In this document: positions 5,009 to 18,158 of the stretch, in pieces
Position numbering within the stretch: the first letter of the stretch is position 1
Layout of the letters: every line of letters starts with the position of its first letter
Source: Candidatus Cryptoclostridium obscurum
Lineage (GTDB): Bacteria > Bacillota > Dehalobacteriia > UBA7702
Direction: 5' to 3'
Assembly (NCBI GenBank): GCA_904420535.1
Contig: CAJFVQ010000007.1
Coordinates: 1 to 44,412 of the forward strand
Length of the DNA: 44,412 nt
Made by a program: the position numbers and the translations under genes
Notes under the pieces: model-generated
What the model was told of the DNA's origin: nothing
Databases searched by the model: none
What the model saw: only the letters and a program-made list of their open reading frames with translations

Positions 5009-5824
5009 TTATTCCAATTCGGCCAAATCATTACGGACATAACCGCTTTCACCGTTTTCCAAAATAATATGGTACCAACCGTCAACTTCTTCCAAATAGA
5101 TTCCCGTTTCTCCCTGGTTAAGGCGGGTTACTTCTTCAGAATCAGTGGAGGCAGCAGAACGAATCCTGGCAAAACTGTTGGTAATGACTACATTTCGTGT
5201 CGGCGCAGAGGATGGTTCAGAACCTTCTGTTTCTTCTACCAAATCGGCAGAAACATAACCTTCCGTATCATCAGCCATACGTACATGAACCCAACCGTCT
5301 GATTCAGACAGTTTTTCCATAGTATCTCCTTCCAAAGCAACGGAGAGAATCTCACTTTCCTGAGAAGCTTCGGAACGGACATTGAGATAAAGACCAACAG
5401 GAGTTATCAGCGTAACCTCTCCGTTATCAGAACTTTCTGAGGCTCCATCATTTTCTCCATTCGTATCACCGGCAGCAGTATCCTCTACCAAAGACATTTT
5501 GACAGAGGGAACATAACCGGCAACACCATCCATTACTTCAATATATAACCAATTCGGTTCATCCTGATGAATACAAGTCACTTCGGTATTTTGAGGCAGA
5601 GTCATCACTACTTCGGAATCCATATCCGCCTGTTCATGGACATTGACGACATTTTCACCGGTTGTAACTGTTTTTCCGGCAAGGTCTTTTGAAGCCGCAT
5701 CTCCAAAGCCCAACATCGCGGGGAGTCCTGAAATTCCCCCATTTTGATTAATATGTCCTAACAGGAAACCACCTGCTAAACTGGCGATTGAAATAATGAA
5801 CACTACAATTACTTTTTTCCACAC
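5009..5824 (-). CDS. Membrane-anchored protein with three bacterial SH3 domains
   Basis: About 271 residues. An N-terminal transmembrane helix (VVFIISIASLAGGFLLG) is followed by three SH3b-type repeats (roughly 55-115, 137-197 and 210-271), each with the NVR/IRSAAS...V..L.....W..I.......GYV pattern. An acidic, Ser-rich linker separates repeats one and two. SH3b repeats commonly bind peptidoglycan, so it is likely anchored in the membrane and facing the wall; there is no catalytic domain. I prefer GTG at 5824, which has AAAGGTGA eight bases upstream; an earlier GTG at 5836 would overlap that site. It lies 41 bp downstream of the WecA-like gene and probably belongs to the wall-polymer unit. Confidence 0.82.
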   Translation of the reverse strand: MWKKVIVVFIISIASLAGGFLLGHINQNGGISGLPAMLGFGDAASKDLAGKTVTTGENVVNVHEQADMDSEVVMTLPQNTEVTCIHQDEPNWLYIEVMDGVAGYVPSVKMSLVEDTAAGDTNGENDGASESSDNGEVTLITPVGLYLNVRSEASQESEILSVALEGDTMEKLSESDGWVHVRMADDTEGYVSADLVEETEGSEPSSAPTRNVVITNSFARIRSAASTDSEEVTRLNQGETGIYLEEVDGWYHIILENGESGYVRNDLAELE

Positions 5825-5865
5825 GATCTGACTCACCTTTCTAAAGCATGAAGAACTGCTCCATA

Positions 5866-6885
5866 CTATTTTTCTTTATGGATACTCAATACACCGATTT
5901 TTACAGCCCCAACCATAATTAGAGCGGAAGCAAAAATCAACAGGAAAATGCTGTAAACCGAGGGCAATAATGTTACCATAACGGCAAAAGCTCCCAAAAG
6001 GAATGTAATGGCATAAATAAATAATACCGTATCTTTATGACTAAAGCCTCGGGCCATTAATTGATGATGCAAGTGGCCTTTATCAGCCTCAAAAACCGGT
6101 TTATGATTCATCTTTCTGCGGATAATGGCAAAAAGCGTATCGAGAATCGGAATTCCCAATACCATAATGGGAATAAAGAAAGAAATAATCGTCGCCCCTT
6201 CCGACAAACCGAGAATTGACAGTGCGCCAATCACAAAGCCTAAAAACAGGGCGCCGCAATCTCCCATAAAAAGCTGGGCCGGATGGAAATTATAGCGAAG
6301 GAATCCCAAAATCCCTCCGACCAAAATCAAAGCAATGCAGCCGCTTACCGTAAATCCTTTGGCCAAAGAGACGACAGCCAGAGACAATGCCGCAATTCCA
6401 GAAACCCCCGATGCCAAACCATCAAGACCGTCAATCAAATTTACGGCATTGGAGACCCCAACCAGCCATAAAAGGGTAATCGGATAACCGATCCATCCCA
6501 AGTCAAAAATTGCCCCGGTAATGGGATTAGTAATGAACTCCAGACGCACATCAAAACAGATCAAAACAATCGCAGCAATGATTTGCCCCAACAGTTTCAT
6601 TTTGGGCGAGATATTTTTAATATCGTCATAAAGCCCGACGGCTACGACGATGGAGGCACTGAGCGCAAGCCCCAAAAGGGTACGGGAAAATTCACCGTAT
6701 ACGAGAATCCCAGCAATGAAACCGCAATAAATACCAAGACCTCCCAAGCGAGTCATAACTCCAGTATGAACTTTGCGGGCATCGGGCTCGTCATAAACGC
6801 CAAAGTGCATGGCCATTTTTTTTGTTAAAGGCGTTACCAGCAACGAAATGACGATACCGGCCAGAAATGCGATTAATAATCTCAT
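5866..6885 (-). CDS. wecA/tagO: MraY/WecA/TagO family undecaprenyl-phosphate sugar-1-phosphate transferase
   Basis: 339 residues, highly hydrophobic with about ten or eleven transmembrane segments. It carries the family motifs: DDIKNISPKMK, NLIDGLDGLASG, FMGDCGALFLGF and the basic HLHHQLMARG loop. Members transfer a sugar-1-phosphate (usually GlcNAc-1-P) from a UDP-sugar to undecaprenyl phosphate at the inner face of the membrane, the first step of teichoic-acid-like or secondary wall polymers. The HLHH motif favours the WecA/TagO branch over MraY. ATG 6885 is preceded by GAGGTAGTT. It follows murJ with a 27-bp gap, in one unit with the CsaB-like and SH3 genes. Confidence 0.92.
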   Translation of the reverse strand: MRLLIAFLAGIVISLLVTPLTKKMAMHFGVYDEPDARKVHTGVMTRLGGLGIYCGFIAGILVYGEFSRTLLGLALSASIVVAVGLYDDIKNISPKMKLLGQIIAAIVLICFDVRLEFITNPITGAIFDLGWIGYPITLLWLVGVSNAVNLIDGLDGLASGVSGIAALSLAVVSLAKGFTVSGCIALILVGGILGFLRYNFHPAQLFMGDCGALFLGFVIGALSILGLSEGATIISFFIPIMVLGIPILDTLFAIIRRKMNHKPVFEADKGHLHHQLMARGFSHKDTVLFIYAITFLLGAFAVMVTLLPSVYSIFLLIFASALIMVGAVKIGVLSIHKEK

Positions 6886-6912: not shown

Positions 6913-8448
6913 TTAGGCGGAATTTCGTTTAATTTTACGAAGCAGGATTTCCTTCATGTCGTCAAACTCCCGTAATTTCATCACGGAAGCAGCCAATAAA
7001 TAAACGGCAACTCCCGAAATGATCCCCAGTGCGACAATGATGAAATTACTTTCCATTCCCAAAAGGCGCAAGCACCATTCGACAACGGAAACAGCAGCAG
7101 CCATCAATAACGAGGAAAAAAGAATTTTTCCAAATGATTGTAACAAAGGGCGATAACGAAAATGAGACATATGTTTTTTCAAAGCAATAAAGAAAACCAG
7201 CATATTAGCGGTACTCGCGAGGGAAGTAGCCAAAGCCAGGCCATCGGAGCCCATCCATCTCACCGTGAGAAAACTTATAACAACATTAACAAGAATCCCT
7301 ATCATACCGGCATAAAGCGGCAATTTGTTATCTTCAAAGGCATAATACACCTTCATCATTACGAGAATCACAGCATAGGGCAGCAAACCCAAAGAATACC
7401 AGAATAAAGCGGAAGATGTATTCAATGTGGCGGCAGCATCAAAAGCTCCCCGCTGAAACAACAACGTAATAATGGGCTGTCGCAGAATCATTAACCCAAC
7501 GGCAGAGGGGATTCCCAAAAACATCACCAACCCCACACCCTTATGGATGATGCGGTCAAGTTTATCTTCTTCCCCTTTCATGGCGTATTCTGTCAGGTAG
7601 GGATAAATCGCCACGGCAATGGCAGCGACAAAAACACCGCTGGGAAGATTCACAACTTTACTGGCGTAATTCAATACTGAGATACTTCCCTCTGCAAGAC
7701 CGGAAGCAAAAATTCGATTCAAAATATAATAAATCTGGTTGACCGAGGTTCCCAACACAATAGGAATTAAGGAAACCATTGCCATACGCACATCAGGATG
7801 ATTCCAAGATAACTTGAAACGATAACGGAAACCTGTTTTGGCAACACTGGGGAAATGAATTAACATCAGGCCGATAAAGCCCAAAAGCGTTCCTACTGCC
7901 AAACCTTGGATTCGTGTTACAAACAACACAGAAACAATAATAATTGCACTGCATAATGCCGGCGCCGACGCGCTGACTAAAAAGCGATGATTGGCGTTTA
8001 AGTATCCCGATAAAACCATGCCAATGCTCATAAAAAGAATCGATGGGAACATGATGCGCGTTAACTGCACAGCGAGAGCGGCAGTTTCGTTGTCGAGACT
8101 GGGAGCTGTAACGGTCACCAAAATAGGAGCAAAAGCTATTCCCAATATGGTAATGACGAGCATGGCCAAAGCCACAAGATTTAGAAAATAATTTCCTACC
8201 AAATTGGCTTCTTTTTGATTATCTTCCAAAAGATATTTTGTCAACAATGGGACCGTTACTGTGACAAGAGCAGATCCCAAAACCGCCTGTAAGGAATAGG
8301 GAAGCGTATAGGCCACAAGATAGGCATCGGTGTACATTGTTGCGCCAAAAGCGCCGGCAATGGCCATTTCCCGAACAAATCCCAGGATCTTTGCCACCAG
8401 ATTCATCACAACGATGACTGCCGCCGCTTTTGTAATATTGTTTGCCAT
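6913..8448 (-). CDS. murJ: MurJ/MviN-family lipid flippase (copy 1)
   Basis: About 511 residues, 13-14 hydrophobic segments, MOP-superfamily MurJ family. Near the N-terminus it has KILGFVREMAIAGAFG, matching the conserved GxxRE region, and it keeps arginines in the cavity-lining helices. MurJ flips lipid-linked peptidoglycan precursors. Because a second copy lies at 16504, one of the two may instead serve the wall polymer built by this locus (inference). The chosen start is ATG 8448, preceded by AAAAGGAGA; a GTG at 8466 overlapping the upstream stop is less likely. It follows the degenerate CsaB-like gene closely and precedes wecA/tagO. Confidence 0.9.
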   Translation of the reverse strand: MANNITKAAAVIVVMNLVAKILGFVREMAIAGAFGATMYTDAYLVAYTLPYSLQAVLGSALVTVTVPLLTKYLLEDNQKEANLVGNYFLNLVALAMLVITILGIAFAPILVTVTAPSLDNETAALAVQLTRIMFPSILFMSIGMVLSGYLNANHRFLVSASAPALCSAIIIVSVLFVTRIQGLAVGTLLGFIGLMLIHFPSVAKTGFRYRFKLSWNHPDVRMAMVSLIPIVLGTSVNQIYYILNRIFASGLAEGSISVLNYASKVVNLPSGVFVAAIAVAIYPYLTEYAMKGEEDKLDRIIHKGVGLVMFLGIPSAVGLMILRQPIITLLFQRGAFDAAATLNTSSALFWYSLGLLPYAVILVMMKVYYAFEDNKLPLYAGMIGILVNVVISFLTVRWMGSDGLALATSLASTANMLVFFIALKKHMSHFRYRPLLQSFGKILFSSLLMAAAVSVVEWCLRLLGMESNFIIVALGIISGVAVYLLAASVMKLREFDDMKEILLRKIKRNSA

Positions 8449-8462
8449 GGTTCTCCTTTTAA

Positions 8463-10256
8463 TCACTCATCTTCGGGGGAGACCTTTTTTCCCTCACTTG
8501 CTTTTTTAAGGCTGTCAAGATCCACATAGGAAATATCGTTTTCCCGCTCCGAAGCGAAATCTGCAGCCTCTTCTTCTGCAGATTCCGCTGTTTCTGATTC
8601 CGCAGCTCTGGCTGCTTTACGTTCTTCCAGCATTGCGATCTTCTCCGCTCTGGTACGTTTCACATGACCGGAACGACGAATCACCCGCTGGATGATCACA
8701 TCCAATAAGAAATTAATTTGGTTCGCTTCCTCCGATAAACGGGGAAGGTTTTTTTCCAACGCGGCAACGGCGCTATCAGTATCCTCAACAATCTTCCGAT
8801 AATTTGCCAAAAAGGAATCATTGTTATATTGCTCTAGATCGCCGCATAGGGGGATTCCCGCTTTGTAACAGAACTCACGCACTTCCTCATCGCCGCTAAG
8901 AGCCGCAAAAGGTTTATATTTCAATGCCGCCATAATCAATACGGGAAGTTCCATCCCGAATACAAGATCAGCAGCAGCTATAATATCCATAACTTCCTGA
9001 GGCAATAATGCTTCGCCAGCATCAAAAAGTTCCGCGAACTCCGTCATCTGAGAAAGAACCGTCTTCGCAATGGGCAAGTCCCGTTCGTATTGAAAGGGTA
9101 CAAATACTACAGTATAACCGAAACGGACAGAGTCATCAGCCAATGTGACCAAATCAGCAATGGGAATCTCTCTTTCTTTTCCCTCTTCTCCGAGGAAAAA
9201 TACAGCGAGTTTCGTATCCTCCAAAGCCCATTCTTCAGGACGGGACGTCAACAGTCGATGGGAACAAGTCACATCATTCCGTAGTTCCTCAACGGGAACA
9301 TCAGCGGTATCCTCCGCTGTCTCTTCGGAACCTGCCGTCGCTTCATCCTGTCTGACAGAAGCTATGATCTCGTCAATGCTGTCACCAACAATGATTTCAA
9401 TTTCTACAGGAGTTTCTGCATCAACTGATTGATCAGCGGCTGCCAAGGATTCTTCTTTCGGTAAGAAATCGTCGGGCACCACCGTGGCAAATTGTTCCAT
9501 GGGAATATCAAGATTTTCCGCTGCATTAGTTTTCTCAAAAGATTTCTTCTGATCCAAAGCGGCAAATTCCTCGGGATCCATCATAACGATCTGCACTTCA
9601 AGGCCTTGATCTCCCGGATCGGAAAAGTTGTTTTTTGTTTCCTTTTGAGCAGCTCCCATTGCGGCATTCTCCTCTTTTTCTGCCTTGTCTTTCAGCTGTT
9701 CTGCCAAAGCAGTAAACTTTTCCACGTCCCAACAATGACTCAGAGAAGTGAGATTCAGCAACGGATTACCTGCAACACTGATGCGACCGCGCCGCAGTCC
9801 CCAATGGCGCAGGCAATCGAATGATTTTTGATCCCGCACCGTAATACGGGAAACTTTTTGCAAAGCACTCACTGCGAATTTTCGGGCCAAAGGATTTTCT
9901 ATATCTTCGGTAAAGCCCTGACCGTAGACGAAAATGGGCTTTTTACGCCGCACCGCCATACGGATGACCCGAGTGTAATGGTAACAAGAACGCAAATCTG
10001 TTTTTTCACGCATGAGACTACTGTCACCACAGATTACCACATCGCATTCACGAATTCCTTTATGGAGTTTTGACCATTGATGGCAATCGTAGGAAATAAC
10101 GCCATAGGCTTGGGCGGTGCCCTCAGGATCGTCGGAAAAAACAACAATTTCAACGTCTTCAATATGATTGCGCAACGATTCAATGATAGAAAGCAGGGTT
10201 GCTTCATCGGCGAGATTATCAAAGCCGTAATATCCAGTAATACAAACTTTTATCAT
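8463..10256 (-). CDS. Degenerate CsaB-like (polysaccharide pyruvyl transferase family) protein with acidic insert
   Basis: 597 residues. Residues 1-180 and 345-520 resemble polysaccharide pyruvyl transferases. They are interrupted by an Asp/Glu/Ala-rich, low-complexity segment (about 185-340), and the protein ends in a charged tail (about 545-597). Signature motifs seen intact in the second family member at 14244 are changed here. GYYGFGNSGDEA becomes GYYGFDNLADEA. GGGSLLQD becomes GDSSLMRE. The conserved R-L-H becomes E-L-P at residues 436-438. Loss of pyruvyl transfer activity is therefore likely, leaving a scaffold or regulatory role; this is inference. There is no signal peptide, so it is probably cytoplasmic. 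It is first in its transcription unit, behind a strong promoter, and directly upstream of murJ copy 1. Confidence 0.75.
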   Translation of the reverse strand: MIKVCITGYYGFDNLADEATLLSIIESLRNHIEDVEIVVFSDDPEGTAQAYGVISYDCHQWSKLHKGIRECDVVICGDSSLMREKTDLRSCYHYTRVIRMAVRRKKPIFVYGQGFTEDIENPLARKFAVSALQKVSRITVRDQKSFDCLRHWGLRRGRISVAGNPLLNLTSLSHCWDVEKFTALAEQLKDKAEKEENAAMGAAQKETKNNFSDPGDQGLEVQIVMMDPEEFAALDQKKSFEKTNAAENLDIPMEQFATVVPDDFLPKEESLAAADQSVDAETPVEIEIIVGDSIDEIIASVRQDEATAGSEETAEDTADVPVEELRNDVTCSHRLLTSRPEEWALEDTKLAVFFLGEEGKEREIPIADLVTLADDSVRFGYTVVFVPFQYERDLPIAKTVLSQMTEFAELFDAGEALLPQEVMDIIAAADLVFGMELPVLIMAALKYKPFAALSGDEEVREFCYKAGIPLCGDLEQYNNDSFLANYRKIVEDTDSAVAALEKNLPRLSEEANQINFLLDVIIQRVIRRSGHVKRTRAEKIAMLEERKAARAAESETAESAEEEAADFASERENDISYVDLDSLKKASEGKKVSPEDE

Positions 10257-10360: not shown

Positions 10361-10389
10361 ATTATAATAAAAAAAAGACAATACATCAA
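10361..10389 (-). promoter_or_regulatory. Sigma-A-type promoter for the CsaB-like/murJ/wecA unit
   Basis: Minus strand: -35 TTGATG (10384-10389), 17-bp T-rich spacer, perfect -10 TATAAT (10361-10366). It lies about 105 bp upstream of the CsaB-like start and just past the terminator of the previous unit. Confidence 0.8.
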
Positions 10390-10445
10390 GTTTTTTCACA
10401 AGAAAAGTCAGAAAGCAACACAGAAAGCATCGTTACCCCTGCCAT

Positions 10446-10485
10446 TGAAGAAAATGCAAGAGTACGGTTGTGCATACTCTTGCAT
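10446..10485 (-). terminator. Rho-independent terminator after tagA
   Basis: Stem ATGCAAGAGTA / TACTCTTGCAT (10454-10464 with 10475-10485), 10-nt loop, followed on the minus strand by TTTTCTTC. It starts just after the stop codon of the TagA-like gene. Confidence 0.85.
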
Positions 10486-10491
10486 CCGATA

Positions 10492-11220
10492 TTACTTTTT
10501 GCAATCTTTTTTTACCAGAGACATAAATTTGGGCAACGCCATCATTCGTTTTATGCGTTTGGGATCCGTACAGAGGCGGTAAAACCACTCCATTCCCATT
10601 TTTTGAAACACCTTCGGCGCACGCTTCACATTGCCGGAAAGCACGTCCAAACTGCCGCCAACTCCGATGGCGACATGAATACCGGTCTCTTCCCTGTGTT
10701 CCATGATCCATTGATCCTGCTTAGGAAAGCCCATTGCCACAAAAAGGATATCGGTTTGAGCGGCGGCAATTTCTTGGGCAATGGCGGCGCTTTCCTCCTC
10801 CTTAAAATAACCGTCATGATATCCTACAATCGAAACATCGGGGTAATCGCTGTGAATCTTCATCATTGCCGTTTCAATCACATCGGGATGGGCCCCGAGG
10901 AAATAAAAGCGATGCTTTCCTCGAGCCAATAAATGCTGGACCAAGTCGATACCGGAGACTCGCTCCTTCAGGGGGGTACCATATCGTTCCGCTGCCCACA
11001 AAATTCCGGATCCATCGGCGGTTACATAATCCGCAGTTTCAATTATATGGCGTACCTTTTGATCCGTTGCCGCAAGATAAGCAATTTCCGCATTCATCGT
11101 GACGATACGAGCATACCCCTGTTCCGCCACGGTTTTATCGATGTATGCCAAAGTTTCTTCCATGGTACTGTCCGATACAGGCAGCCCCAAAACGCGAATT
11201 TCTCTACCCTTTGCAGCCAT
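10492..11220 (-). CDS. tagA: WecG/TagA/CpsF family glycosyltransferase
   Basis: 242 residues, the usual family length. It shows the TagA/WecG pattern: TMNAEIAYLA, then VTADGSGILWAA with the catalytic-type Asp, a GAHPDVIETA nucleotide-binding region, VAMGFPKQDQWI, and a basic C-terminal tail (FYRLCTDPKRIKRMM) that in TagA contacts the membrane. Family members add ManNAc or ManNAcA to lipid-linked GlcNAc, the step after WecA/TagO, so the two enzymes fit one polymer. It abuts the LCP gene without a spacer; its ribosome site GAAGGA lies inside the end of that gene. The exact sugar cannot be read from sequence. Confidence 0.92.
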   Translation of the reverse strand: MAAKGREIRVLGLPVSDSTMEETLAYIDKTVAEQGYARIVTMNAEIAYLAATDQKVRHIIETADYVTADGSGILWAAERYGTPLKERVSGIDLVQHLLARGKHRFYFLGAHPDVIETAMMKIHSDYPDVSIVGYHDGYFKEEESAAIAQEIAAAQTDILFVAMGFPKQDQWIMEHREETGIHVAIGVGGSLDVLSGNVKRAPKVFQKMGMEWFYRLCTDPKRIKRMMALPKFMSLVKKDCKK

Positions 11221-12309
11221 TTATTCTGATCCTTCCGAACTACTGGATTCCACAGATACTTTCCCGGCACTTTGCTCCATGGCCTCCATGACGTTTTCAG
11301 GCATTTCTTCGTAATTATTCAGAGCGTCAAAGAATTCATCACGGGTGGAATCGTAAATAAAGTAGTAACTCACACCGTCCTGATAGCGGCCTTCCCCCGG
11401 TGGGGTATAGGTCGTAAGATCCACACCGTCCTTCAAATTCATGAATATCTGTAAAAGCTGGGCACCGGTAAGATTTGTTGAAACATTGGACTTAATAGCA
11501 GTACAGAGATCCGGAATTCTCAGCAATGTACCGGCGGAAAATAGCTGACCTTTTAAAGCAGACATAAACATTTGCTGACGTGCCACGCGCCCGATATCCC
11601 CCTGGCCGTCGCTGCGAAAACGACAAAACTGAAGCGCTTGATCGCCGTCAAGCGTTTGCAATCCCGGCTGGAGGTCAATGCCCTCGTCGGCATACTTCAT
11701 ACGTATGGGCACATCAATGGTAACACCGCCTATTGCGTCGACAATGTCTCGGAAACCTTGAAAATCCACCTGAGCCATGAAATCAATTTCAATGCCAAAA
11801 TTATGTTCCAGCGTTGCCTTGGAAAGTTCGATACCACCATAAGCAAAGGCATGGTTGATCTTCGTATGCTGTCCGGCATAATTGCCGCCTTCTGGGGGAA
11901 TCTCGATATAAGTATCCCGGGGAATACTCAAAAGACGCATACTTTTTTGCTGCATATCAACGTAGGCGATCATCATCGTATCGGAACGACTGTTGGTTTC
12001 TCCGGGGCGAGCATCGCTTCCCATCATCAAAACCGTAAATTGATCCTTGCCAAAAGTAATTCCCGTGTCTTCAGCAGCTTCCAATTCGGCCGTGCCGCTA
12101 AGATCACCCCAAATTAGAGGATATACATAAGCTCCCACATAGCCGACCCATCCAAAAACCACGACACATACGGCAAGCACCCCTAGGAAGATCCAATTAT
12201 GAATTCGTTTTCTCCGTTTTAAACGGGATTTTTTCGAACTTCCCGAAACCGGAGATTTTTCAAATTCATAAATACTATCCTCTTGTTGGTTCTTTTTCTT
12301 TTTAAACAT
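11221..12309 (-). CDS. LytR-CpsA-Psr (LCP) family wall-polymer ligase
   Basis: 362 residues. A basic cytoplasmic N-terminus and one transmembrane helix (about 34-57) precede an extracellular LCP domain. The domain has MMGSDARPGE, SDTMMIAYVD, SIPRDTYIEIP, HTKINHAFAYGG and FCRFRSDGQGDIGRVARQQ, which carry the Asp/Arg residues used to bind the lipid pyrophosphate. LCP enzymes move undecaprenyl-linked glycopolymers onto peptidoglycan. A Ser/Glu-rich tail closes the protein. ATG 12309 has only a distant AAGGA. It is transcribed with tagA from a good promoter at 12350-12378, so ligation and a sugar-transfer step are co-regulated. Confidence 0.93.
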   Translation of the reverse strand: MFKKKKNQQEDSIYEFEKSPVSGSSKKSRLKRRKRIHNWIFLGVLAVCVVVFGWVGYVGAYVYPLIWGDLSGTAELEAAEDTGITFGKDQFTVLMMGSDARPGETNSRSDTMMIAYVDMQQKSMRLLSIPRDTYIEIPPEGGNYAGQHTKINHAFAYGGIELSKATLEHNFGIEIDFMAQVDFQGFRDIVDAIGGVTIDVPIRMKYADEGIDLQPGLQTLDGDQALQFCRFRSDGQGDIGRVARQQMFMSALKGQLFSAGTLLRIPDLCTAIKSNVSTNLTGAQLLQIFMNLKDGVDLTTYTPPGEGRYQDGVSYYFIYDSTRDEFFDALNNYEEMPENVMEAMEQSAGKVSVESSSSEGSE

Positions 12310-14243: not shown

Positions 14244-16472
14244 TTATTGTTCTAAAAGTTCCCGTAAGTATGCTTCATTATGGTGTGCTTTTTCTGTCAT
14301 TATCATGGAGGTTCTTTTCACACGTTCCACATATTCGTCGTGGTGTTCTGTTAGATCATCAACGGTTTTTAAAAGCGCATTCAGATCAAGGTTTTCCACG
14401 TCGCCACCGTTTGGCATAGAAAAAGCATCAATATAGTAACGAATTTTTGGGTCATACACGAGTCCCATAAAAGGCACGTCCATATGAGCCGCAAAAATCA
14501 ACGTATGAAGACGCATAGCAATAACAAAATCCGCCGCGCCGATCACGCTCATCAGTTCTTCCGATGTCACCTGCTGGTCAAGGATACATGCGGGAGAATT
14601 CATGATTGCAATCACCTCACGGCTAATGTTAATGTCGTGGGGAATTTGCATCGGCACAAAGAGAATATTTTTATGATATTTTTGAAAAATCTCATCGCAG
14701 AGCGCCGCCATTTTTTCACAAAGATCGTTTCGTCCTGCCCAGTTACGAACGGAGACTACAACAAAGGGAACATCCGATGGCATACCGCAGCGTTCCAACA
14801 CGCTTTTGGCGTATTTTTTTGGTGGGGGATCCATAGTGAAAACAGGATCTCCGGTAACATAGAGACGTTTGTTGATAACCCCCATATTCCGCAGCTCTTT
14901 GGCAGAATTCTCATCTCGCAACGTAATGATATCAGCTTTATTCAATAACCAACGAACCAAACGACGATTGTTTTTTTTCCGTACCGGACCAATGCCGTTG
15001 GCATAAAGCATCACTTTTTTCCCCATCAGTTCCGAAAGGTAAATAATGGAAAGATAATACAATAGAGATCGGGTAGAGGTGCGGTCCTGCAAAAGACTGC
15101 CACCGCCAGAAACGAGAACGTCGCATTTTCGAATTGCTTGCAAAACAGAACGAAAATGGAAACGATGAGTTGTATGGTATCCATAACGCCGTCGAGTTTC
15201 CTCAGGTTCGTTGGATAATACCGAAATCTCAACATTACCATCCATCACAGACTGGATATTTGCATAAACTGCTTGTAAAATTGCTTCGTCGCCGCTATTG
15301 CCGAAACCATAATAGCCGCTAATCAAAACACGTTTTTTGGAATCTTCGGCCAAAACGGCATCATAAGCCTTCAGACAATCATCGGCCATACGGGCAACAG
15401 AATAATATTCGAAAATCACCTCACGGCCATAATTTCCCAAGGAAGCCTTTTCTTCCACGGATAAATCATGGAAGAAACGAACGATATCGTCAAACAATAA
15501 CTGTGGCGAGGAGGCCTGGCACCCTCGGCAACAAAAATTTCCCTCTTGGGCAACGGCTAAATGCTGTTGAGAGAAAAGGCCGATATATCCTTCATTTCCT
15601 GCTACGATAACCGGTTTTGCCGCTGCCATGGCTTCCAAAGCAGCACGTGAAACACCGACGAACAGATCTCCGACAGCCACAATATCATTAATATCGGTGC
15701 GTGGTCCTGTCATGGTAATACAGGTCCGTCCTAACTGCTCATTGATTTTCTTTGCTTTTTCGTTTAACTCATCGAATACATTGCCGCCTCCGGCAATCAG
15801 TAACTGCACACCGGGAATTTCATTCGATAATTGTGGCGCGATTTCAATAAGATGCCGCGCCACCAAGGCCCGATCTTCATCCATACGACTCACATAGGAA
15901 ATAATGGGTTTTGAAGAATCCAATCCAAATTCCGCCAATACTTTTTCCCCGCGATTCTGAGGAGAAAATTTATCAGTGTCGATCCCATTGATCGTTACAA
16001 AAATGTTTTCGGGAGCAATTCCGTAGTTGTCCATAAGATACTGTTTAATATCATCACTGACAGAAACGGTCTTTTGCCCCCAGTTGGATATATATTTTAA
16101 AATTCCCGAAGTATCAAATACCCAGTGAGCAGTGGTTACAAAATGGAACTTCATTTTTTTGTGCAGTTTCCCGCAAATAAATCCGGGAATTCTGGCATGG
16201 GCATGGACAATATCAGGTCGTTCTTTCTCAATAATCTGCTTCATTAAACGGTAAGATTTCCATATCGCGAAAACTTTGCGCCGATTCATGGGCACACAAT
16301 AATGGCGAATGCCGGCGGCCTCAACTTCGGGGACATAGACGCCGCCGTTGGAAGCAATGATCACGTCATAGCCTCTCTTTTTTAATTCTTTGGCTAATTC
16401 TACGATATGGGTCTCGGCTCCACCGATATCAAGACCCATGGTAGCCATTAAAATTTTGCAATTCTGTTCCAC
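14244..16472 (-). CDS. csaB: GT4 glycosyltransferase - CsaB polysaccharide pyruvyl transferase fusion
   Basis: 742 residues with two enzymes in one chain. Residues 1-375 are a GT-B fold family-4 glycosyltransferase (GLDIGGAETHIVELAKEL, HAHARIPGF, INGIDTDKFSP, SRAALEAMAAAKPV). Residues 379-742 are a CsaB-type pyruvyl transferase with intact motifs: GYYGFGNSGDEA, VSGGGSLLQD, YANGIGPV and R-L-H at 654-656. CsaB adds a pyruvyl ketal to a ManNAc residue of secondary wall polymers, creating the ligand for SLH domains. Fusion suggests that a sugar is added and then pyruvylated by one protein. The start is GTG 16472 behind TAGGAG. No SLH-domain protein is in the window, so the surface target is unknown. 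Confidence 0.88.
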   Translation of the reverse strand: MEQNCKILMATMGLDIGGAETHIVELAKELKKRGYDVIIASNGGVYVPEVEAAGIRHYCVPMNRRKVFAIWKSYRLMKQIIEKERPDIVHAHARIPGFICGKLHKKMKFHFVTTAHWVFDTSGILKYISNWGQKTVSVSDDIKQYLMDNYGIAPENIFVTINGIDTDKFSPQNRGEKVLAEFGLDSSKPIISYVSRMDEDRALVARHLIEIAPQLSNEIPGVQLLIAGGGNVFDELNEKAKKINEQLGRTCITMTGPRTDINDIVAVGDLFVGVSRAALEAMAAAKPVIVAGNEGYIGLFSQQHLAVAQEGNFCCRGCQASSPQLLFDDIVRFFHDLSVEEKASLGNYGREVIFEYYSVARMADDCLKAYDAVLAEDSKKRVLISGYYGFGNSGDEAILQAVYANIQSVMDGNVEISVLSNEPEETRRRYGYHTTHRFHFRSVLQAIRKCDVLVSGGGSLLQDRTSTRSLLYYLSIIYLSELMGKKVMLYANGIGPVRKKNNRRLVRWLLNKADIITLRDENSAKELRNMGVINKRLYVTGDPVFTMDPPPKKYAKSVLERCGMPSDVPFVVVSVRNWAGRNDLCEKMAALCDEIFQKYHKNILFVPMQIPHDINISREVIAIMNSPACILDQQVTSEELMSVIGAADFVIAMRLHTLIFAAHMDVPFMGLVYDPKIRYYIDAFSMPNGGDVENLDLNALLKTVDDLTEHHDEYVERVKRTSMIMTEKAHHNEAYLRELLEQ

Positions 16473-16503: not shown

Positions 16504-18063
16504 TTACGAACGATGCAATAACTTTTTCACCAATGATAAGGCAGCCTTCCCTTCATCGATCCGCAATACTAAGGTAACAACAAAATAAACAAGCAATCCC
16601 GCCAAAGTCGGGACAAATACTGTCACCAATTTTCCTAACACACCGACAAAAAGATCATCCACCAAAAGTCGGACGCCATAAACAGCACATCCCATCACTG
16701 CAGCCGCCAAAAATACTTTCAATAAATCGAAGCAAAACTTTTTGGACAGGAATCCCAATCCCCGTTTTTCCAAAGAAATAATCAAAACCAAGGCATTGAT
16801 GATACAGGAAATCGAGGAAGCCACCGCAAGACCCGCCACATCAAAAGGATCTGTCAACACCATACATAAAAGGATATTGGAAACAATAGCGCAAACCCCG
16901 GCAATCAGCGGCACTTTGCCACTTTGTTCTGCAAAAAAAGCACGACTTAAAATTGTTTGCACTGTGTAACCCACCATCCCTAGAGATAGGAATACCAAAG
17001 CCCGGGCAGTAATATCCACGGAAAAGGCATCAAACTCACCGCCGCCATAGACCAGATCTACCAGAGGACGAGCCAAAGTCATCATCCCCACCATTAACGG
17101 CACCACAAAAAATAAAGAAGAATGAATGACGCTGGAAATGGTATCTCGAAAAGCAGTAGCTTCATTTTGAGCCGTGAGCTTCGACAATCTGGGGAAAATT
17201 ACATTTGTAACAGATAAAACAAAAACACCGGTGATGATCAAATACAGATTATTCGCAAACTCAATGGCAGAAACACCAGCCCCCTGAAAGAGATGGGAAC
17301 CGAACCGCGTATTGATGGCTAAATTGATGGGTTGTACCCAAGTACTGACCATGACGGGCAACATCAGGACGAACACCTTTTTCATTCCTTCCGAACGGAA
17401 ATGGAACGAAGGACGGTACAAATATCCTTTTTTCACAAGGGAAGGAACCTGAACCAAAGCCTGTAATAACCAACCCAATAAAAAGGCCAGGGCCAAACCG
17501 TAAATACCAAAGCGATCGTTAAAAAAGATGAAATATAAGATCACCGCGATATTGGAGACCACACTGATTAGGGCCGGAATATTAAACTCATCCATGGACT
17601 GGAGCACCCCGACCATGGAAAAAGCAATGCCCGTAAAAAGCACTGATGGAAACATCAATCGCGTCAAAGAGATACATAATTCCCTGGTCTCGGCATCATA
17701 ACCGTCGGCAAAAAGCGTAACCAGCTGATCGGCAAATACAATACCCAATACGGTGAGAATACAACAAAGCAGGGAGATCAGTGTAAAAAAATCATTGGAG
17801 AAACGAAATGCTTCTTTTTTCCCTTTGTTCGTCAAATATTCATTGAATACGGGAATGAAACAGGCTGCCACCGCAGAAGCAAACACAGCGTCGAAAAACA
17901 CCCGGGGAATGCGGCTTGCTGCAAGAAAGGCATTGGTTTCCATACCGCTGCCATAAGTAACGGAGAGCAAACGATCCCTTAAAAGGCCCAATATTTTGCC
18001 CAGTAGGGTCAAAACCATCACCCAACTCACTGTTTTTACCGCACTTTTTTTTCCCTTCGTCAT
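16504..18063 (-). CDS. MurJ/MviN-family lipid flippase (copy 2)
   Basis: About 519 residues and 13-14 transmembrane segments. The N-terminal KILGLLRDRLLSVTYG matches the MurJ GxxR(E/D) region, and ALISVVSNIAVILYF is typical mid-protein. It is clearly diverged from copy 1 at 6913. It heads the unit that continues with the GT4-CsaB fusion, 31 bp away, so it may flip the pyruvylated polymer intermediate rather than lipid II (inference). I prefer ATG 18063, with GAGGAGA upstream, over ATG 18114, which has no ribosome site. An in-between ATG at about 18093 also lacks one. Confidence 0.87.
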   Translation of the reverse strand: MTKGKKSAVKTVSWVMVLTLLGKILGLLRDRLLSVTYGSGMETNAFLAASRIPRVFFDAVFASAVAACFIPVFNEYLTNKGKKEAFRFSNDFFTLISLLCCILTVLGIVFADQLVTLFADGYDAETRELCISLTRLMFPSVLFTGIAFSMVGVLQSMDEFNIPALISVVSNIAVILYFIFFNDRFGIYGLALAFLLGWLLQALVQVPSLVKKGYLYRPSFHFRSEGMKKVFVLMLPVMVSTWVQPINLAINTRFGSHLFQGAGVSAIEFANNLYLIITGVFVLSVTNVIFPRLSKLTAQNEATAFRDTISSVIHSSLFFVVPLMVGMMTLARPLVDLVYGGGEFDAFSVDITARALVFLSLGMVGYTVQTILSRAFFAEQSGKVPLIAGVCAIVSNILLCMVLTDPFDVAGLAVASSISCIINALVLIISLEKRGLGFLSKKFCFDLLKVFLAAAVMGCAVYGVRLLVDDLFVGVLGKLVTVFVPTLAGLLVYFVVTLVLRIDEGKAALSLVKKLLHRS

Positions 18064-18158
18064 ACCCGGATTGTTCTCCTCAGAATCGATCATTGCAATA
18101 CAATTTGACGGCATGAAGCATTGTTACACAATAACACAAATCATTTAAGATAACCGCC

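Follow-up and report, generated by a model that had tools for sequence, protein, structure and literature searches.

The ketalpyruvyltransferase CsaB (TIGR03609) is known from P. alvei and B. anthracis. In P. alvei, csaB, tagA, and tagO are transcribed as a unit, and the substrate of CsaB is the lipid-linked disaccharide, while later steps of the secondary cell wall polymer (SCWP) pathway have been named as unresolved (PMC6030368); the handover of SCWP repeats from the cytoplasmic enzymes to the flippase is an open question. According to mutational data, P. alvei CsaB variants R148Q, R148K, H308A, H308R, and R207D are inactive, H308S is active at a reduced level, K328R is only about eightfold slower, Y14A is dead, and Y14F and variants at F16 change the acceptor kinetics (PMC10435577). 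Similarly, His270Ala abolishes the function of B. anthracis CsaB in vivo (PMC3545897). Pvg1p of S. pombe belongs to the same Pfam family (PF04230) and has the same GT-B-type fold; its residues R217 and R337, conserved in homologs, contact phosphoenolpyruvate (PEP) according to the published model (PMC4872226). In the literature that we searched, neither DUF5693 nor a pyruvyltransferase pseudoenzyme was the subject of a paper.

Here, we consider a CsaB-like gene without the donor-site residues, pCsaB, in a stretch of 44,412 nucleotides from Candidatus Cryptoclostridium obscurum (contig CAJFVQ010000007.1), referred to as the window. The features of its locus are the following:

5866..6885, minus strand: WecA/TagO-like phosphoglycosyltransferase
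6913..8466, minus strand: MurJ1, an ortholog of the class's CsaB-linked MurJ
8463..10256, minus strand: pCsaB, degenerate CsaB-like protein of 597 aa, donor (PEP) site lost, single intact frame
10361..10389, minus strand: promoter-like site TTGATG-17-TATAAT upstream of pCsaB (10/12, consensus match only)
10440..10490, minus strand: terminator-like hairpin between tagA and pCsaB (-20 kcal/mol, z -2.9, then UUUUCUU; region 10430-10495 folded)
10492..11220, minus strand: WecG/TagA family transferase, predicted ManNAc-GlcNAc-PP-Und synthesis
11221..12309, minus strand: LCP (LytR-CpsA-Psr) glycopolymer transferase
14244..16472, minus strand: GT4-CsaB fusion, R-L-H intact, probable acting pyruvyltransferase
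16504..18114, minus strand: MurJ2, second MurJ, remote from MurJ1

Like CsaB, pCsaB has both Rossmann domains with the core motifs in the same order, and lies in an SCWP locus with relatives of TagA, TagO/WecA, and LCP proteins; it differs from CsaB in the loss of R306, H308, and K328, in about 110–165 extra acidic linker residues, and in an extra charged tail. The equivalent of Pvg1p R337 is Glu or Asp in pCsaB. Unlike pCsaB, GT4-CsaB has a fused GT4 domain and all donor-site residues intact, and adjoins MurJ2. The CsaB–MurJ fusions of two relatives (genomes G001 and G002) resemble pCsaB in that a CsaB domain is tied to a MurJ flippase, but their R-L-H is intact, the two parts form one polypeptide, and the MurJ part is remote from MurJ1.

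The coordinates, strand, length, and CsaB kinship of the frame, as given in the initial annotation, agree with our frame reading and with the PF04230, TIGR03609, and BLASTP results. pCsaB scores 88.6 bits with PF04230 (PS_pyruv_trans), above the gathering cut-off of 25.3. With the CsaB equivalog model TIGR03609, the window copy and its three orthologs score 178.3, 155.1, 133.6, and 124.4 bits, the first value being that of the window, all under the cut-off of 213.1, and GT4-CsaB scores 290. The two window proteins match each other with BLASTP E 3e-25 (CsaB domain 28–32% identical in two aligned blocks) and are the only PF04230 genes of this genome (G000). The nearest solved structures for pCsaB are UDP-GlcNAc 2-epimerases and glycosyltransferases with the GT-B fold; no match was produced by a PDB sequence search with the four-member pCsaB profile or by a scan of genome contigs with the single pCsaB sequence as query.

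We aligned the four pCsaB with 62 CsaB domains, 54 filed as stand-alone and eight as fusions; as the filing is by frame length, a truncated fusion, e.g., L022, counts as stand-alone. P. alvei residue numbers were carried over with the motifs as anchors rather than by aligning the P. alvei sequence. All 62 CsaB domains have R306 and H308, and 61 have K328, the remaining one showing a gap there. In pCsaB of G003, the window, G001, and G002, respectively, these positions are occupied by E/E/D/D, Y/P/Y/C, and R/E/R/R, the window residues being E436, P438, and E458; loop-1 R207 is lost as well. Thus, the change of R-L-H to E-L-P described in the initial annotation is found exactly at residues 436–438, and the replacement of GGGSLLQD by GDSSLMRE also holds. 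The change of GFGNSGDE to GFDNLADE is real at the sequence level, but only G>A departs from the family, since GFDNLGDE is ordinary in the 62-domain alignment. Losses that had escaped the annotation are K328 (E458), Y455, Q83>R, and D84>E.

On the other hand, the statement that every signature motif has been lost is too strong, as the window copy retains the equivalents of Y14, F16, S88, T94, and R148 (Y10, F12, S80, T86, and R141, respectively). The acceptor-site position Y14 is tyrosine in four out of four pCsaB. R148, present in 62 out of 62 CsaB domains, is kept in the window copy only and is Ala in the three other pCsaB; F16, S88, and T94 are also gone in these three orthologs, and hence acceptor binding is possibly lost there too. 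CsaB has 31 columns with at least 97% invariance; all four pCsaB keep ten of these and lack six, and the other 15 are mixed. The six lost ones are at ligand-site motifs, and structural glycines are kept. In another 15 columns, all pCsaB share a residue that is rare in CsaB. Some replacements are uniform in all four copies (R306>E/D, Q91>R/K, D92>E), and the pair Q83>R/K and R436>E/D, likewise present in all four, might, as a guess, reflect an exchange of charges between the two sides of the former cleft. From the sequence, pCsaB is predicted to be unable to bind PEP, and we strongly predict it to be catalytically inactive, although the loss of the histidine alone would not prove this, given that H308S retains activity.

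The alignment and AlphaFold models, the latter based on six sequences, divide the window pCsaB as follows:

9735..10256, minus strand: N-terminal Rossmann domain, residues 1–174, with Y10/F12, S80, T86, and R141 kept
9213..9734, minus strand: acidic insert (linker), residues 175–348 (about 174 aa), with a net charge of about -31 and predicted to be mostly disordered
8694..9212, minus strand: C-terminal Rossmann domain, residues 349–521, with E436-L437-P438 (formerly R-L-H) and E458 (formerly K328)
8463..8693, minus strand: charged C-terminal tail, residues 522–597, not in canonical CsaB

The reported acidic insert is therefore present. It was thought to split the fold; being a linker between two Rossmann domains and predicted to be disordered, it interrupts neither of them. 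In the AF2 model both domains are confident (blocks mostly 75–95), and residues 205–331 are disordered with pLDDT <50; the model of the G002 ortholog has equally confident domains (blocks mostly 75–95) and a disordered linker at about 177–300. The span from D149 to R306 is 294 aa in the window copy and 247–298 aa in the four pCsaB, compared to 120–161 aa (median 134) in the 62 CsaB domains, and its net negative charge is 20–38 in pCsaB, whereas in CsaB the median is 5 and no value exceeds 13. Position, acidity, and disorder of the insert are conserved across pCsaB; beyond composition, no sequence conservation of the insert was seen between the two genera (p 0.09–0.71 in shuffles). A candidate conserved motif, an IDYxGxEVEIEIRIV-like stretch, is common within genus g2 (G001 and G002) and not demonstrably shared with the window copy. 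By its most acidic 130-aa stretch, pCsaB ranks fifth among 282 sampled ORFs of the genome, so its acidity is unusual there, not unique.

pCsaB occurs in four out of four genomes of the order, all from one family with two genera, the orthologs being 28% identical to the window copy. All are full-length, lack R-L-H, carry the acidic insert, and lie directly upstream of MurJ. The initial annotation had named relatives with R-L-H, or frames broken by indels in close strains, as signs of recent decay; in the four genomes the frames are intact and R-L-H is absent, and recent decay is rejected as the main reading because of the open orthologs. No other pCsaB was found in the class (43 genomes) or in a 398-genome sample of the phylum: profile scores fall from at least 371 bits for pCsaB to at most 176 for the other class and phylum matches, and the fetched matches outside the family are CsaB with donor-site residues (for the phylum, 30 fetched loci were read for R-L-H). 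The matches of a profile scan of GTDB were the same three MAGs (two named as RUG isolates, one as “Peptococcaceae”) and two ordinary CsaB; the RUG names presumably mark rumen genomes. Every genome of the family has an intact CsaB domain elsewhere, in GT4-CsaB or in a CsaB–MurJ fusion.

Within genus g2, the pCsaB domains of G001 and G002 are 77% identical with low dN, and dN/dS is estimated at about 0.15 for the whole protein, about 0.11 for the N domain (dN 0.17, dS 1.52), and 0.31 for the insert. On these estimates, which are rough because dS is saturated, the folded domains look constrained. pCsaB combines the features of a pseudoenzyme, namely, a homologous fold, lost substrate residues with predicted loss of activity, and a gene kept in four out of four genomes; in this respect the earlier proposal of a retained pseudoenzyme stands.

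The gene order DUF5693–CsaB–MurJ–WecA is found in eight out of 12 fetched loci of the class, the others being cut by the contig end, without a MurJ match, or with a GT4 fusion. Since this slot holds an intact CsaB in other families of the class and pCsaB–MurJ1–WecA in this one, pCsaB looks like the ancestral CsaB and not like an additional copy. In G003, LCP and TagA also lie upstream as in the window, and the contig ends within WecA. G000 and G003 have no DUF5693, which in G001 and G002 lies before the CsaB–MurJ fusion. A quick tree agrees with the locus order: MurJ1 groups with the CsaB-linked MurJ of the class, unlike MurJ2 and the fused MurJ. In the CsaB tree, the four pCsaB group together (100/99) on long branches (0.86 for the stem, 1.08 for the window tip) with an unsettled sister group, neither an origin from GT4-CsaB (p-AU 0.15) nor one from the CsaB–MurJ fusion (p-AU 0.24) being rejected. 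Hence, the “CsaB paralog” of the annotation is a CsaB homolog, but more likely the gene of the ancestral locus than a paralog of the GT4-CsaB gene at 14244; a simple within-genome duplication is disfavoured by the locus order and the MurJ tree, although the CsaB tree is compatible with it.

The expected promoter was recovered as a promoter-like site behind the tagA hairpin, in a region with a total of 31 versus 26.8 ± 5.3 in shuffles. The terminator-like hairpin and the good -35/-10 match indicate that pCsaB is probably the first gene of a separate unit with murJ1 and wecA. The likelier start of MurJ1 is ATG 8448 behind AAGGAG, 14 nt past the pCsaB stop; the GTG start given in the program-made ORF list would overlap pCsaB by 4 nt. 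The suggested association with the neighbouring MurJ is reinforced by the conservation of the pCsaB–MurJ pair in four out of four genomes and by the natural CsaB–MurJ fusions in G001 and G002; a link to WecA would have its basis in gene order alone.

Given the lost donor site, the retained acceptor tyrosine, and the adjoining MurJ, we favour a retained pseudo-pyruvyltransferase that works with MurJ1 in a non-catalytic role, as an adaptor for the lipid carrier or as a gate, a reading to which we give an even chance. Of its competitors, the one we take most seriously, though we consider it fairly unlikely, is an enzyme with a donor pocket rebuilt for another donor (e.g., a nucleotide sugar or a cationic group) and the same lipid-linked acceptor. 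It is consistent with the GT-B neighbours among solved structures, with the partly uniform replacements, and with the 15 pCsaB-specific invariant residues; however, no recognised donor motif has been gained, cleft positions S88, T94, and R148 vary among the four copies, and a disordered linker has been inserted beside catalytic loop 1. Persistence of pyruvyltransferase activity in a rearranged site is highly improbable: R148, S88, Y14, and F16 of the window copy, and the tolerance of P. alvei CsaB to H308S and K328R, speak for it, but R306 has become an acid in all four pCsaB, K328 is Glu in the window, loop-1 R207 is lost, and R148, where even Gln and Lys are dead in P. alvei, is Ala in three orthologs.

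Pairs of a dead and a live homolog are common in enzyme families, and both kinds occur in every genome of this family, so pCsaB might instead be a subunit that pairs with GT4-CsaB or CsaB–MurJ and tunes pyruvylation. We regard this as distinctly unlikely, because the conserved neighbour of pCsaB is MurJ1, and the acting CsaB differs between genomes (the GT4 and MurJ fusions are separate in the tree), which makes a conserved specific pairing less likely. Still less probable is slow decay, i.e., a redundant CsaB drifting after takeover and kept open only as the leader of the murJ-wecA operon. The long branch and the dN between the window and G003, about twice as high for pCsaB as for MurJ1 (0.78 vs. 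0.39), would fit such drift; intact frames in four genomes of two genera, despite saturated dS, and the similarity of the G001 and G002 domains with their structural glycines do not.

For pCsaB as a partner of MurJ1, the following course can be proposed. The original CsaB of the csaB-murJ-wecA locus would have become a pseudo-pyruvyltransferase in the ancestor of the family, keeping the two-Rossmann GT-B fold and the acceptor tyrosine, with a flexible acidic linker between the domains. WecA and TagA would make ManNAc-GlcNAc-PP-undecaprenol on the cytoplasmic face; pCsaB may bind this lipid-linked disaccharide and hold, present, or gate it for MurJ1, possibly in direct contact, and the acidic linker may take part in the gating. 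A role as scaffold or sensor, as suggested in the initial annotation, is conjectural. SLH domains are found in 43 out of 43 genomes of the class (96 matches in G000), and thus the need for a pyruvylated polymer is to be expected, as is its supply by an intact CsaB domain; pyruvylation for SLH-domain proteins would fall to GT4-CsaB or, in relatives, to the CsaB–MurJ fusion. The full scenario, in which fusion copies from other CsaB lineages replaced the ancestral CsaB and the latter was re-used as the lipid-carrier adaptor of a MurJ-type flippase with the disordered acidic linker as a gate, is more tentative, a possibility somewhat on the doubtful side. A donor-less CsaB kept beside MurJ and CsaB–MurJ fusions in sister species suggest a physical link between the pyruvylation machinery and the flippase, and pCsaB, predicted to be inactive, would be a natural catalysis-free version for testing it.

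A third full-length MurJ of the window's genome (G000:C11, 18749–20062, L132) is a candidate housekeeping lipid II flippase; MurJ1 would then be available for handling a polymer. The CsaB–MurJ fusion, with an R-L-H-intact CsaB N-terminal to a divergent MurJ in one frame, has 893 aa in G002:C14 (L007/L022-L023), and is cut by the contig end in G001:C159 (L008/L024). GT4-CsaB fusions of about 730–750 aa are seen in the window, in L025 (3280–5502), and in L057, L058, and L098; in many f5 genomes of the class, GT4-CsaB is the sole form among their profile matches. In G001, a DUF2201 (VWA-like/metallopeptidase-like) gene runs divergently from pCsaB at the place of tagA in the window, and G002 has a similar gene (L021, 7339–8688, and L022, 15047–16432). 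Downstream of wecA, the window encodes a protein with three bacterial SH3 domains (5009–5836) with counterparts in G001 and G002.
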